Source: Aporrectodea caliginosa
Lineage: Eukaryota; Annelida; Clitellata; Crassiclitellata; Lumbricidae
DNA length: 64,000 nucleotides
Direction: 5' to 3'
Assembly (NCBI GenBank): GCA_020284085.1
Contig: JACEVL010000690.1
Coordinates: forward strand, 501,501 to 565,500
Below the pieces are notes generated by a model. The model made no database searches. It had not been told where the DNA came from and saw nothing but the letters and a program-made list of their open reading frames with translations. The position numbers were made by a program, and so were the translations under genes. Numbering within the stretch: the stretch's first letter is position 1; the number at the start of each line of letters is the position of its first letter. Shown here piece by piece: positions 4,526-40,075 of the stretch.

Positions 4526-4755
4526 GACCCGCAGACATGAAGAATCCACATATATTTTTTTATGTTTCCATAATTTATGTCAATATCTTCTGAGTTTACA
4601 GCATGTCCAGAAAGTTGAGGTAGGCCTACAATATTGACATAACTCAGAAGATAATTAAATCGAGCACATGGCATATGCGCCGGTTCTGTGCTTTGGGACA
4701 GCTGTAATTCGCTGTGGAGACGTCTTTTAATGGGTGTACATGGATACAATTTCAC

Positions 4756-5860
4756 TGTTCAACAATAATTACTGATCTAGAGTGAGATTAAATAAAGTTT
4801 ATTCGTCAAGAAATTCAATTGTACCATTGTTGTTGAGTCTATGCAAAATTACCGCTTAGATAACTCTGGGGATGATCTAAAGTAATAGCGTGAGAGTTTG
4901 CCACTATAAGTTTGAAGTGAATAAACATCAATGAAACAACAACAAACACGTCATTGTGGTTAATCTAACTAAAACTGTTTCAAAACGCAAAGCACAATAC
5001 CAGTAGATTAAAAAGTGTGGTTATTCAAACAAAAATATTCACAGTTCAATGCCTAAAACTACAAATGAGTAAAAAAATAAGCCAGAAATAAGATGACACA
5101 CGCAATGTCGATTTTAAAATGTTCCTGAAAATTAAAAAAAACATTAGGCCTATCATTAGTCAAACCCAAACATTCAAACATTACTGGGCATCGATTCATT
5201 ATTGTATATTGCTATGCGTTCATTAATTTAATAAGTCCGCTTCCTGCATCGACCCAATAATGATGCTTACAATAATCATACATGTTTTCAACAAACTAAA
5301 ATAATGCCACTCATTGTGGCTAAAACTGTTTTAATTAACCTAAAAATGTGTCTAAAACGAAACAGTCTCCCGACCACTGAAATCTAAACTGCGTCTAGTC
5401 AAAACATAGATATTCATGGATTTCACTGCATAACATCATGAATTAATATAGAACAATGAGCAGTAGAAAAATAATAGAACAGCTGATAAGTGAAATTAGA
5501 AAAAAGTAAGAAAACAACTTAATAGATCCTTGTTCGTACAATTGATATCATATATTGCAAAGTAAAATAGAAATACTTACTTAGACTCTAGAGTGAAAAA
5601 TATTCTTATAGGCCGTAACGTCAAAACATGGCCAACGGGTCATAAAGTAGGCCTAAGTTTAGGGAAACACAAACATGCTGTGTTTTGTCAATAAAGCTCT
5701 TTACTTTGAACAAACAATAGCCTATTAGTGAAAATATATTCATTCACGCGTAGCCTATTATTACGTATTCATTAACTTAACACTTCCACTATCTCCTATT
5801 CGTGCCCATATGTTTCGATCATCACAGGACATTTTCGCATATTTGAGATAGGCCTAATAT
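4756..5860. other. AT-rich spacer between zinc-finger copies
   Basis: No reading frame or recognisable element. The stretch is AT-rich, has three TAGGCCTA sites (5145, 5648, 5849), and near 5280-5420 resembles the flank at 1427-1525. Confidence 0.5.
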
Positions 5861-6225
5861 CTTTCTTTTGTGTGTCTCAACAACTGGCATTGGTGCGTTT
5901 TCTCCAAAGAACCAATTCTAACATCACTTTTAGACCAGAAGGTCGACCAAAACTTGTTTTTACATACTGATTCAAGGGAGTTATGAAAAAGCGCGATAAA
6001 ACTGCTTCATGTTGCATTAGCACAGGAAGAGTGGCTTTCCAGTATAGTCTCATTCGAGTTTTCAGGTCACTAACTTTTGAAACTAATTTTATAAGTTATT
6101 AGATTGCAGTGTCATAATGTAAGACATCTGAAACCATAACGCAAAAGTCCCATAATGGGTTTCATATACACACGCATAGGACCAGAAGAATGACATGCAC
6201 GATTTTGAACTTTGGAAAATATTTT

Positions 6226-7464
6226 TTAGAAACGCGACACAAATGGTTTCTCCACAAAGTGGGTCTTCTTGTGACGTCTTAGATTTGAAGTGCATGCGAA
6301 TGTTTTCTTGCATAACTCGCAGAGATATGGCTTATCTGTGGAGTGTGTGGTTTTATGACTGCTCAGATCTGATGCTCTTCTGAATGTTTTATTACATACC
6401 GGGCAAAGGTATGGTTTAGCTTCAGAGTGGATTTTTTTATGACTTGCCAGACCCCAACCGCACGAGAATGTTTTCTGACAGACCTGGCAAAAGTATGGTT
6501 TCTCTCCAGTATGAATTCTCATGTGACTTTTTAAATTGGAGGACATTCCAAATTGTTTTTGACAAACCTGGCATTTGTAAGGTTTCTCTCCAGTATGAAT
6601 TCTAATATGGACCCGCAGACATGAAGAATCCATAAAAACCTTTTTACATATCTCGCACTTAAATCGTTTCTCTCCAGTATGGCATCTCATATGACCTTGA
6701 AGATGAGAATTTTGGGAGAATGTTTTCTTACACATCTGGCAAAGGTATGGCTTTTCTCCTGAGTGGATTTTTTCATGACTTCTCAGCTGATAAGAACGAC
6801 AATAACTTTGTTTACACATCTGACACTGGTATGGTCTCTCTCCAGTGTGGATTCTAACATGAGTGTGTAAAGCTGAAGATGTGGAAAATGTGTTTTTACA
6901 AAGTATACACAGAAATTGCTTTTCTTCAGAGTGGGATTTTTCATGACTTTTCGGACATGAAGTGTTTGAAAATGTTTTCTGACATATCCGGCAAAGGTGA
7001 AGAGCTCTCTTGTGACACTTTAGATGACCTGCATACTTAGTTTTAAACTCACAAAACTGGCATTGGTATGGTTTCACTACGGTATGAATTCTTGCATGAA
7101 TTGTTAAACTGGAATATCGGGTAAAACATTTTTGACATACTTGGCATTGGTAAGGCATCTCTCCAGTGTGGATTCTTGCATGATCTGTTAGAGTGGAACA
7201 CTGAGAAAAACGTTTTCTGCAAACTTGGCATTGGAAGGATTTCTCTCCGATATGAATTCTTGCATGCCTTCTTAGATCTGAAGAATGAAAGAAACGCGTT
7301 TGACAAACTTGGCATTGGTAATGCATCTCTCCAATATTAGCTCTTTCATGATATGTTAGACTGAAAAACGGAGAAACACCTTTTTGACATACGTGACATT
7401 GGTAAGGCATCTCTCCGGTAATAATAATAATATCTTTTCTGTAATAAGCGCCTGAGAAACGCAC
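6226..7464 (-). CDS. C2H2 zinc-finger protein, 14-finger array (part of a broken gene)
   Basis: The 412-codon minus-strand frame is almost entirely C2H2 fingers joined by HTGEKPYxC-type linkers: about 14 units, the first lacking its last histidine and the fifth with an odd CHKRALH spacing. Tandem fingers of this kind bind DNA and act in the nucleus; the target cannot be predicted here. The frame begins in SINE sequence at 7464, so the listed start is not a natural start. The array originally continued upstream into 7660-8165, where a SINE and several indels now break it. The stop follows shortly after the last finger (ending VSRF). A paralogue lies at 29.65-31.26 kb. The array is well preserved, so either the damage is recent or a shorter protein is made from an internal ATG. 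Confidence 0.6.
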   Translation of the reverse strand: MRFSGAYYRKDIIIITGEMPYQCHVCQKGVSPFFSLTYHERANIGEMHYQCQVCQTRFFHSSDLRRHARIHIGEKSFQCQVCRKRFSQCSTLTDHARIHTGEMPYQCQVCQKCFTRYSSLTIHARIHTVVKPYQCQFCEFKTKYAGHLKCHKRALHLCRICQKTFSNTSCPKSHEKSHSEEKQFLCILCKNTFSTSSALHTHVRIHTGERPYQCQMCKQSYCRSYQLRSHEKIHSGEKPYLCQMCKKTFSQNSHLQGHMRCHTGEKRFKCEICKKVFMDSSCLRVHIRIHTGEKPYKCQVCQKQFGMSSNLKSHMRIHTGEKPYFCQVCQKTFSCGWGLASHKKIHSEAKPYLCPVCNKTFRRASDLSSHKTTHSTDKPYLCELCKKTFACTSNLRRHKKTHFVEKPFVSRF

Positions 7465-38229: not shown

Positions 38230-38755
38230 GAGAGTCGCAAAAATGTTTTCACAAAACTGACACAGCATTGTTTCTCTCAAACAAGGGTTCACCCATGTAT
38301 TACAAAAATAAAATAAAAAACAAAATAAAATAAAAATGTTTCCTGGCATACTTAAAATAATCGCGTGAAAATGTTCTTTGGAATGACTGGAATTTGTAAG
38401 GCTTTTCTCAATTATAGATTACCACGTAATTTTGCAGATGTAAACTTTGGAAAATGTTTTCACAAACTTGAGCGAGAAACGAAGTGGTCTTTTTCATGCA
38501 GACACGGAGTGGGTTTTTTCATGACGTCTCAGACATGAACCGCCTGAGAATGTTTTCTGACATATCTGGCAAAGGTATGGTTTCTCTCCAGTATGTGTTC
38601 TCGTGTGACTCTTTAGATAACTTCTGTTATTAGTTTTAAAATCATATAACTGGCAGTGGTGTGGTTTCTCTTGGGTAGCCTATGTATTCTTGCATGATGT
38701 GTTAGACCAGTATTTCGGATAAACCGTTGTTGACATGCCTGGCATTGGTATGGAA
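38230..38755 (-). pseudogene. C2H2 zinc-finger relic
   Basis: The minus strand carries finger pieces in several frames: a CQACQQRF start at 38750-38735, a CQLYDFKT-like finger near 38650, and an ILRRFMSET/ICQ-type finger near 38530-38590 with [12 protein letters not shown] linkers. It is the fourth copy of the family in this window. Its flank from 38770 on matches the 10.7-12.1 kb segment, and the other flank (37.4-38.2 kb) matches 31.7-32.2 kb inverted. Many stops. Confidence 0.75.
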
Positions 38756-38769
38756 GCGGGATTGATTAT

Positions 38770-40075
38770 AGTTATCATGGACATTGGTAGATTGCTTACT
38801 TACCAACATGAAGTTCGGCATTGAAGATATTCAAATAATTTACCAACCTAAACTACGGGATAACCGCTTTCTTTTAGGTTTTAAGCGAGGAAAATGGAGA
38901 AAAATTCTGCATTGTTTTGTTATGGTTTTTATGTTGTTTTCGCATGCTGAAGTACATGTGCAATCGTGCGAATACAGTGTGCAACGGCTACTTCACAGTT
39001 CAGATAGTGGAATAGGCCTACAGGCTAAAAAGTTGTGTTCAATGTGTTTGTTGCAATCGTTCCAGTTTCTATTGCATCAAAACCAAAACTTAGTTTCATC
39101 AATCCAGCTTCTATTTACGATAAAAAATTATTTACATCAATCCAACTTCTATTTAAAGATACAAATGGTTTCATCAGTCCCACTTCCAGTTAGGGAAACA
39201 ATGTTTTCATCAATCCATCTTCCATTTCAATTTGACGATATAAAATAATTTACCAACCTAAACTACGGGTTTACCAAGAAAGCTTCTGAGTAAACGGCGT
39301 GGCCAGAAAGTTGAGGGACAATATTGACATAAATTGTGGAAACGTAATAACACAAAGTCAGTTTGTTCTAACAGACACTGTTGTAGAGGAATGATCCCTA
39401 TGATCAAGCAGCAATTTGTAAGAGATTTGAAATTATACTTTTAGTTTTAAAGTATCTACATTCTGGAGAAAGCACATTAAAATCCTATGCGAAAACAAAT
39501 AATAATTATTCCGCTCTTGAATGCGTTGTCCAGATGAGTTCATCGATAATTAGGCTAATCGAGCGATTAACAGAAAATAATTTTTACAGTAGATTTGTAG
39601 CTTTACCTTGTAGACGTAGAGTAGGTCGCTAATACTAATGACGTCATTATTCTTTGTGGAGTTTATATCGTATTATAAGATGTATCAAATTCACTCTTGA
39701 TGCATTGCTACACTTGGAAATCAAAAGTTTACATGTGCGAAGTAATCTTTAGCACAACATACAGTAAGTGAAATGCAAATACTATTATGTTTTAGTAATT
39801 TTATGGTCATCTGTTGCTCTACTAATCTTATCTATTAGCTTACAGTCACAGTAGCCTAATCATAGGCATATCAACAGTAAGGGCCTACAGAATTATCTTG
39901 TTAAAATAAGAGTAAATTTGCTTTGACGAAAAACTAGCCCCCAATTAGACAAGAAAATTACACAGCAACTTACACATGGTGCCAATAGAAGCCGCTACTT
40001 ATTGCCATTGACCCCTAGCTTTCAAGGTCTTGTAACACAAATTCAATGCTATATAACTCGATAGTAGGCCTACAT
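38770..40075. repeat. Segmental duplicate of 10.7-12.15 kb
   Basis: Direct match over 39055-40060, plus an inverted part at 38770-39010. Lacks the hAT MITE and Tc1/mariner insertions of the other copy. Contains minisatellite units at 39060-39235 and three extra TAGG(C)CTA insertions (39013, 39551, 40065). A 154-codon frame at 38784-39248 is not conserved in the partner and is rejected as a gene. Confidence 0.75.

Follow-up and report, generated by a model that had tools for sequence, protein, structure and literature searches.

Why one eight-letter palindrome recurs throughout a 64-kb stretch of contig C689 (the window), and what process put it there, is the question raised by this locus. The palindrome, TAGGCCTA, consists of GGCC with a TA on each side. 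A sequence-only reading had counted 37 copies in the window and regarded them as excision footprints left at TA sites by a TA-targeting transposon with GG...CC ends. Our recount agrees with this number, which is far above that in 100 dinucleotide shuffles (mean 0.54, maximum 2). The whole assembly (1,097,852,775 bp, 1.098 Gb), for which a count had been proposed, contains 292,633 copies, approximately one per 3.75 kb, against 7,583 of the reversed word. The TA-to-TAGGCCTA observation is confirmed and genome-wide. TAGGCCTA and its relatives are probably the excision footprints of a TA-duplicating cut-and-paste transposon with 5′-GGC...GCC-3′ ends.

Specificity of the Word

In a 254-kb sample, comprising the window and 19 loci chosen by place (L009–L027), TAGGCCTA was seen 89 times. 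An order-2 Markov model predicts 2.8 copies, and order-3 models predict 4.5 with the words left in training and 1.9 when trained without them. The reversed word ATCCGGAT was found at the Markov expectation (2 against 2.1). An even enrichment of all A/T-flanked GC palindromes, named in advance as an outcome contrary to insertion, was not observed in the sample: among 16 such palindromes, strong enrichment was found for TAGGCCTA alone, the next-best ratio being 10 against 3.8, with AAGGCCTT seen 4 times (4.3 expected), TTGGCCAA 4 times (5.2) and TAGCGCTA not at all (1.8). In a larger set, which takes in 16 loci picked for TAGGCCTA or TAGGCTA, the highest ratio of observed to expected counts among 8-letter words was that of TAGGCCTA (30.7), practically equal to the value for the simple repeat GGATGGAT (30.6). 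One 8-bp palindrome at high frequency is reminiscent of HIP1 of cyanobacteria, which the cited part of PMC4390886 describes as likewise occurring far beyond chance genome-wide. Unlike HIP1, the present word belongs to a eukaryote and is inserted relative to paralogues.

Insertion at TA Sites and Its Direction

Self-alignments were carried out with loci L001–L035 and the window. A clean 6-bp gap lay opposite 12 of the 25 alignable TAGGCCTA sites. Among other TAnnnnTA sites such a gap was seen at 1 of 468, and among other GGCC-centred sites at 2 of 127. Over all loci and all footprint words, 15 of 59 alignable sites had an exact TA partner (4-nt core 8/27, 3-nt 6/24, 5-nt 1/8); the remainder had another two-base partner (5), a filled partner (10), a substitution (10) or an ambiguous alignment (19). 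TA is duplicated on both sides of a few bases at the footprint sites, as in Tc1/mariner footprints. The empty sites have the form R-TA-Y (R, purine; Y, pyrimidine) with TA alone repeated, and duplications of AT or TWA, characteristic of PHIS elements, were not found at them.

Three of the paralogous pairs reported previously, 4621 with 10738, 39013 with the inverted stretch 10504–10677 and the seven-base variant TAGGCTA at 39551 with 11309–11641, hold as clean TA against a filled site. The pair 8045 and 29769 is truly homologous, with further indels beside the site, and the match of 40065 to 13776 is ambiguous, comprising 40 columns with a 4-bp (not 6-bp) gap and a 1-bp gap. In a haplotype-type comparison, the duplicate pairs C3285/C453 and a pair on C81 were 100% identical over 312–321 bp. 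No second copy of window positions 36000–39500 was found among the matches listed, which do not exceed 78% across about 1 kb or 94% across about 0.2 kb.

The direction of the change can be judged in a repeat that we call SINE-like (SINE, short interspersed nuclear element) on account of its length, the number of its copies and a motif resembling a tRNA. The query was L024:3500-3800; 40 of 3,353 candidates were scored and 39 close copies fetched. Counted among the 44 copies aligned are the query itself and two duplicate pairs whose members are identical. At one GTAC site, TA is present in 40 of the 44 copies, TAGGCCTA in two (L019:5006 and window 7472) and another state in two; the insertion is therefore the derived state. 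One of the filled copies, L019:5006, shares 98.0% identity with an empty copy when gaps are disregarded, and its insertion is therefore recent. At 38676, TAGCCTA lies in a zinc-finger linker, and the other aligned finger units are without an insert. The majority state of the repeat and this linker support insertion, TA to TAGGCCTA, as the apparent direction. The absence of words from the ten mariner bodies examined and from the Polinton, LINE (long interspersed nuclear element) and piggyBac open reading frames (ORFs) is in keeping with it.

The reverse history, with TAGGCCTA ancestral and TA produced by deletion, has in its favour that DNA between direct TA repeats can naturally be lost and that two alignable pairs of sites are filled in both paralogues (1163/1582 and L036/L037). 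Against it stand the SINE-like majority, the finger linker, the empty element bodies and ORFs, and adjoining words with a common TA, for example TAGGCCTAGGCCTAGGCTA in L013. We regard this history as highly improbable, and equally so a word favoured by composition or selection, against which the 15 other palindromes lack any like enrichment.

Product Classes and Target Preference

The window contains 78 footprint words of all kinds, among them 17 TAGGCTA and 22 TAGCCTA (shuffle means 3.07 and 3.35, maxima 7 and 7) and two TAGGGCCTA. The strongest TA-nN-TA words of the 254-kb sample outside simple repeats and repeat families are TAGGCTA/TAGCCTA, TAGGCCTA and TAGGGCCTA/TAGGCCCTA, so the extra bases between the TAs number 3, 4 and, rarely, 5. 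The 3-nt words averaged 52.5 each in the sample, against 8.6 under the order-3 model trained without the words and 13.6 when they stay in training, and the 5-nt words 9 each against 0.4 under the former model. Genome-wide, the proposed counts gave 168,115 TAGGCTA and 168,509 TAGCCTA, against about 41,900 and 41,400, and the 5-nt words TAGGGCCTA and TAGGCCCTA occurred 24,739 and 24,827 times, against 1,462 and 1,354. Subtracting order-2 Markov backgrounds from the sample, we estimate the total at about 560,000 scars (about 280,000 4-nt, 240,000 3-nt and 45,000 5-nt). The 3-nt and 5-nt classes, the target preference described below and the zero counts in mariner, Polinton, LINE and piggyBac stretches are new in this analysis.

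The target preference is RTAY, with GTAC best. The bases outside the TAs of TAGGCCTA, counted on both strands, were R..Y in 106 cases, Y..R in 8, R..R in 32 and Y..Y in 32, compared with 8,664, 8,852, 10,378 and 10,378, respectively, for plain TA; for TAGGCTA, R..Y exceeded Y..R by 46 to 9. Per 1000 empty sites, the filled sites of any class numbered 53 for GTAC, 26 for ATAC/GTAT, 15 for ATAT and 2–3 for the poorest contexts (CTAA/TTAG, 2.5). The form GTAGGCCTAC makes up 41,711 of the 292,633 genome-wide TAGGCCTA sites.

Proposed Mechanism

With TA on both sides, a palindromic target preference and a few related cores, the words have the form of a cut-and-paste footprint, and two identical 3-nt ends, with a terminal triplet that is partly self-complementary, account for the main classes. 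A Tc1/mariner-like, TA-targeting element would insert at RTAY, preferentially GTAC, duplicating the TA, and would later leave; a cut three bases inside the 5′ ends would produce 3-nt GGC overhangs on both sides. Two-base pairing (GC with GC, no mismatch) would yield TA-GGCC-TA, three-base pairing with one mismatch TA-GGC-TA or TA-GCC-TA, pairing of one mismatched base TA-GGGCC-TA or TA-GGCCC-TA, and joining without overlap GGCGCC. Scars would pile up over a long time to their present number. Because no parent element was found, we infer that a transposon was at work, as well as its terminal triplet, the length of the overhangs and a build-up of scars with age. The sequence-only reading was correct as to the insertion and the footprint form, the transposon itself has not been found, and its GG...CC ends are better given as GGC...GCC, as the 2-nt (GC) class shows no target bias (TAGCTA: R..Y 24, Y..R 28). 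A model in which GGG/CCC ends independently leave 1, 2 or 3 bases was discarded, since it predicts a target-biased TAGCTA.

The same mechanism with a different chemistry, namely GGCC ends with 4-nt overhangs or GG ends with 2-nt overhangs, appears quite unlikely. Self-complementary GGCC would pair perfectly to give the 4-nt class, but the 3-nt class would need base loss, yet is about as common as the 4-nt class after background subtraction. Overhangs of 2 nt leave the 5-nt class unexplained, and TAGGTA is without R..Y bias (R..Y 15, Y..R 31).

Scar Load, Age and Clustering

The expected scar load was computed from per-context occupancy rates. Ten mariner bodies (14.4 kb), the copies compared being 94–99% alike, contained no footprint words against 10.1 expected; words are present around some of them (9 in L083, 5 in L041). 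The Polinton-like and the LINE and piggyBac stretches of the window are likewise empty (Table 1), although coding status may matter to this zero count. The joint zero at 17.3 expected has a chance of about 3e-8 if copies are independent, which related copies are not. In 39 SINE-like loci, 3 words were found against 14.0 expected. These loci had been selected for their close similarity to an empty copy, a bias against insertions, and one of the three words (L052) is a substitution.

Single-substitution neighbours of TAGGCCTA in the sample numbered 97 beside the 89 intact words, against 53 expected under order 3 and 72 under order 2. This excess suggests a mean scar age of a few percent divergence, a rough estimate because inner positions contribute more than the TAs.

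The distribution of TAGGCCTA is uneven, with a mean of 0.70 and a variance of 1.28 per 2-kb bin (123 bins). One such bin, L013 (1–2000), holds 15 words of all classes, several of which share a TA, and its paralogue L012 is without several of these words. In the 254-kb sample, 4 of 207 runs hold two or three words sharing a TA. Clustering and TA sharing could reflect either several visits to the same place or slippage.

Evidence Against Excision and the Search for a Parent Element

A number of observations weigh against excision from GGC ends. A 4-nt overhang GGCC is also compatible with the classes. The product set is cleaner than that of rice excisions, of which 8 of 94 were perfect according to the cited part of PMC4423477. 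The product predicted for blunt joining, TAGGCGCCTA, is rare genome-wide (732, control 180), and the 2-nt word TAGCTA is in slight excess (63 against 45 expected). TAGGCATA/TATGCCTA, at 9 each against 3.1 (about threefold; R..Y 9, Y..R 2), look like a small extra footprint class that the mechanism does not predict. The excess of neighbours is larger at inner positions (60 against 27) than at TA positions (37 against 26), which is unlike plain decay. The young segment L036/L037, 99.7% identical, runs counter to a simple age rule, with TAGGCCTA in both copies, presumably copied along with the segment. Finally, no parent has emerged: six mariner families with readable ends include none with clear GGC ends, no repeated TA/GGC...GCC/TA inverted-repeat family was found in roughly 300 kb compared, and the best candidate, L013:21-341, with perfect 18-bp inverted ends TA followed by GGCAAAAGCCC, is a single locus in the genome.

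Transposases of the Tc1/mariner type, with the DDE_3 domain (PF13358), are present in the genome (150 scored of 2,223 candidates). From the 150 places listed, 18 transposase loci were fetched, 12 of which had recognisable ends and represent the six families. The ends are CGA in L038 and L039; CAGGGTGTCC, with TAG or CAC at some ends, in L040, L090 and L091; CAGGGTGGTCC in L041 and L089; CAGTGCTGGCC in L085; and CAC/CAG in L042. In L083, L084 and L092, TATA precedes GGGTG at all six ends, so the end is TAGGG or GGG according to the extent assumed for the duplication. All these families were rejected as parents, none clearly having GGC ends. For the family of L083, L084 and L092, a GGG end following a TATA duplication is conceivable, but the scars would then be TATAGG..CCTATA, whereas 13.5 of the 89 sample TAGGCCTA are preceded by TA, the commonest preceding base being G. 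The remaining six loci (L036, L037, L043, L086, L087 and L088) showed no inverted ends readable as those of an element. The words expected from some of the resident mariner ends are in no clear excess (TACAGTA 21 against 22.3, TACACTA 10.5 against 15.7, TACGATA 19.5 against 14). Separately, TACATGTA is in excess (22 against 4.8 in the sample; genome-wide 127,324 against 61,471 for its reversed word) and is possibly a CA+TG footprint of CA-ended mariners.

The search for full TA-GG...CC-TA elements suggested by the sequence-only reading thus yielded one good candidate, single-copy, and no repeat family in roughly 300 kb, a weak negative, as a steady-state family of a few thousand copies would be represented there by about one copy. 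Several other candidates were rejected. A family of approximately 460 bp resembling miniature inverted-repeat transposable elements has ends GGGGCCGTCCATAAA (exact 17-bp ends, 1,460 + 1,386 = 2,846 in the assembly) and duplications TTA, TAT and TAA in the three copies read (L013:2772-3237, L020:6406-6868, L025:7436-7893). Window 41263–43901 has 13-bp inverted ends GGGGAGACCGGGG and is flanked by 24-bp direct repeats; it spans 2.6 kb with no ORF of at least 120 amino acids inside and might be an element with an unusually long duplication. ISL2EU was set aside for its AT duplication, and the transposase segment L036/L037 for its one visible boundary, which is not TA. The two copies of the latter (C18 and C23), 99.7% identical over 2 kb and without inverted ends in the part read, share the same best DDE_3 score with ten more places (12 in all). 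Apart from the rejected candidates, L009:6192-6369 (178 bp) has matching inverted ends starting with TA and GGAAATTTTGAGTATGG, with the flank GACTATAGTTCTG inverted outside.

Three other accounts may be considered. In the first, an enzyme would break RTAY with a TA stagger and repair would add a fixed GGCC, no element ever having been present. This agrees with the failure to find a parent, with the lack of a visible TA/GGC repeat family in roughly 300 kb and with the unusual uniformity of the insert. However, two fixed GGC ends that pair in part would be expected to give just the 3-, 4- and 5-nt classes, and a missing parent is explained equally well by a transposon that is long-lived and low in copy number when about 300 kb have been read. 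Nor is any polymerase known to us to add a fixed oligonucleotide of this kind. Direct micro-insertion is an unlikely explanation. In the second, germline elements would be cut out in body cells and the assembly would represent the body-cell product; excision of internal eliminated sequences (IESs) between two TAs is known from ciliates (cited part of PMC3077386). The joints here are TA-bounded, numerous and uniform, but the data at hand show no sign of germline-limited DNA. Moreover, ciliate excision restores a single TA. Programmed elimination seems very unlikely. In the third, an animal genome would carry over half a million uniform insertions of the GGCC type at RTAY, made by a system whose mobile partner has gone from the sequenced DNA or was never in it. 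This would be either a ghost transposon, evident from its scars alone, or an enzyme or elimination process that produces GGCC at TA sites with no element resident. We consider it possible but doubtful.

Comparison with Known Systems

The Sleeping Beauty footprint has the core CAG, whereas the core here is GGCC/GGC. The footprints studied here further differ from those of Tc1/mariner elements in that no parent was identified and the words of resident families are not in comparable excess. In the cited parts of PMC7913693 and PMC2642840, Tc1/mariner elements (Sleeping Beauty, Mos1, ZB) leave 2–4 extra bases (footprints of 2–4 bp, PMC7913693), similar to those seen here, and are broken at the 5′ end two or three bases inside the element (PMC2642840), as proposed here, and the palindromic AT target of ZB is similar to the footprint targets of this genome. 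Among PHIS elements (ISL2EU, PIF/Harbinger), ISL2EU ends usually begin with GG, and the duplications given in the cited part of PMC4482050 are AT within A|AT|T, or TWA; here, TA is duplicated within RTAY. Ciliate IESs are likewise very numerous TA-bounded excisions (same part of PMC3077386); unlike them, extra GGCC is left here, the genome is probably that of an animal and there is no evidence for body-cell elimination. Among the open-licence papers listed in searches for the word or for genome-wide footprint censuses, none describes TAGGCCTA as a genomic feature, which does not prove that no such description exists.

Excision normally leaves few traces and is therefore difficult to observe in genomes; here the scars are recognisable on sight. 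If the excision reading is true, the genome records the departures of a transposon rather than its arrivals, and excision rate, target choice and end-joining outcome become measurable over evolutionary time. DNA could also be dated by its scar load, and it could be tested whether scars, with a net gain of 5 to 7 bp and two of three classes frame-shifting, lead among small insertions in the lineage. If the parent is truly absent, a different, unexplained insertion process is at work.

Features of the Window and Surroundings

The coordinates of footprint words and related features are given in Table 1.

Table 1. Footprint words, an empty counterpart and word-free stretches in the window.
Feature	Position	Strand	Remark
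TAGGCCTA	1163..1170	.	paralogous filled site at 1582
TAGGCCTA	1582..1589	.	paralogous filled site at 1163
TAGGCCTAGGGCCTA, two footprint words sharing one TA	2385..2399	.	
TAGGCCTA	3875..3882	.	word count
TAGGCCTA	4621..4628	.	TA in paralogue at 10738
TAGGCCTA	5145..5152	.	word count
TAGGCCTA	5648..5655	.	word count
TAGGCCTA	5849..5856	.	word count
TAGGCCTA in SINE-like repeat	7472..7479	.	TA in 40/44 aligned copies
TAGGCCTA	8045..8052	.	homologue 29769 with additional indels
TAGGCCTA	9786..9793	.	inside ORF adjoining LINE reverse transcriptase
TAGCCTA	10596..10602	.	TA in paralogue 38883–39059; reciprocal insertion, same pair as 39013
Empty TA site	10738..10739	.	counterpart of 4621
TAGGCTA	11926..11932	.	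paralogue 39715–40053: TG, clean 5-bp gap
TAGGCCTA	12605..12612	.	paralogue in L001: TC, clean 6-bp gap
TAGGCCTA	12849..12856	.	word count
TAGGCCTA	13948..13955	.	word count
Polinton-like ORFs	15300..20700	.	0 of the window's 78 footprint words, 4.9 expected from target context
TAGGCCTA	22481..22488	.	word count
TAGGCCTA	22599..22606	.	word count
LINE and piggyBac ORFs	22900..26300	.	0 of the window's 78 footprint words, 2.3 expected
TAGGCCTA	26639..26646	.	word count
TAGGCCTA	28000..28007	.	word count
TAGGCCTA	28232..28239	.	word count
TAGGCCTA	30958..30965	.	end of zinc-finger ORF; alignments ambiguous
TAGGCCTA	31683..31690	.	word count
TAGGCCTA	32179..32186	.	word count
TAGGCCTA	34022..34029	.	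word count
TAGGCCTA	36130..36137	.	word count
TAGGCCTA	36838..36845	.	word count
TAGCCTA in C2H2 zinc-finger linker	38676..38682	.	other aligned finger units TA, some TG
TAGGCCTA	39013..39020	.	TA in inverted paralogue 10504–10677
TAGGCTA	39551..39557	.	TA in paralogue 11309–11641
TAGGCCTA	40065..40072	.	ambiguous against 13776 (4-bp gap)
TAGGCCTA	40158..40165	.	word count
TAGGCCTA	41137..41144	.	word count
TAGGCCTA	42729..42736	.	word count
TAGGCCTA	47982..47989	.	word count
TAGGCCTA	48018..48025	.	word count
TAGCCTAGCCTA, two footprint words sharing one TA	50645..50656	.	
TAGGCCTA	51112..51119	.	word count
TAGGCCTA	51384..51391	.	word count
TAGGCCTA	55468..55475	.	word count
TAGGCCTA	55482..55489	.	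word count
TAGGCCTA in another SINE-like copy	62731..62738	.	alignment ambiguous at site

According to Pfam matches, the window encodes a piece of a DEG/ENaC-type channel and a reverse transcriptase, together with a transposase of the piggyBac type and a Polinton-like stretch; LINE, piggyBac and Polinton are putative labels that we derived from these matches. This gene content and a COX1 with 12 TGA codons lead us to regard the host as an animal. The Polinton-like ORFs (15300–20700) include an A32-like ATPase and an rve integrase with a chromodomain-like end. Elsewhere in the assembly, COX1 with 12 TGA codons was found with equal scores at C70:3435453-3436790 and C4544:4612-5949; C4544 may be mitochondrial, and the C70 sequence may be a nuclear copy or a mis-assembly.

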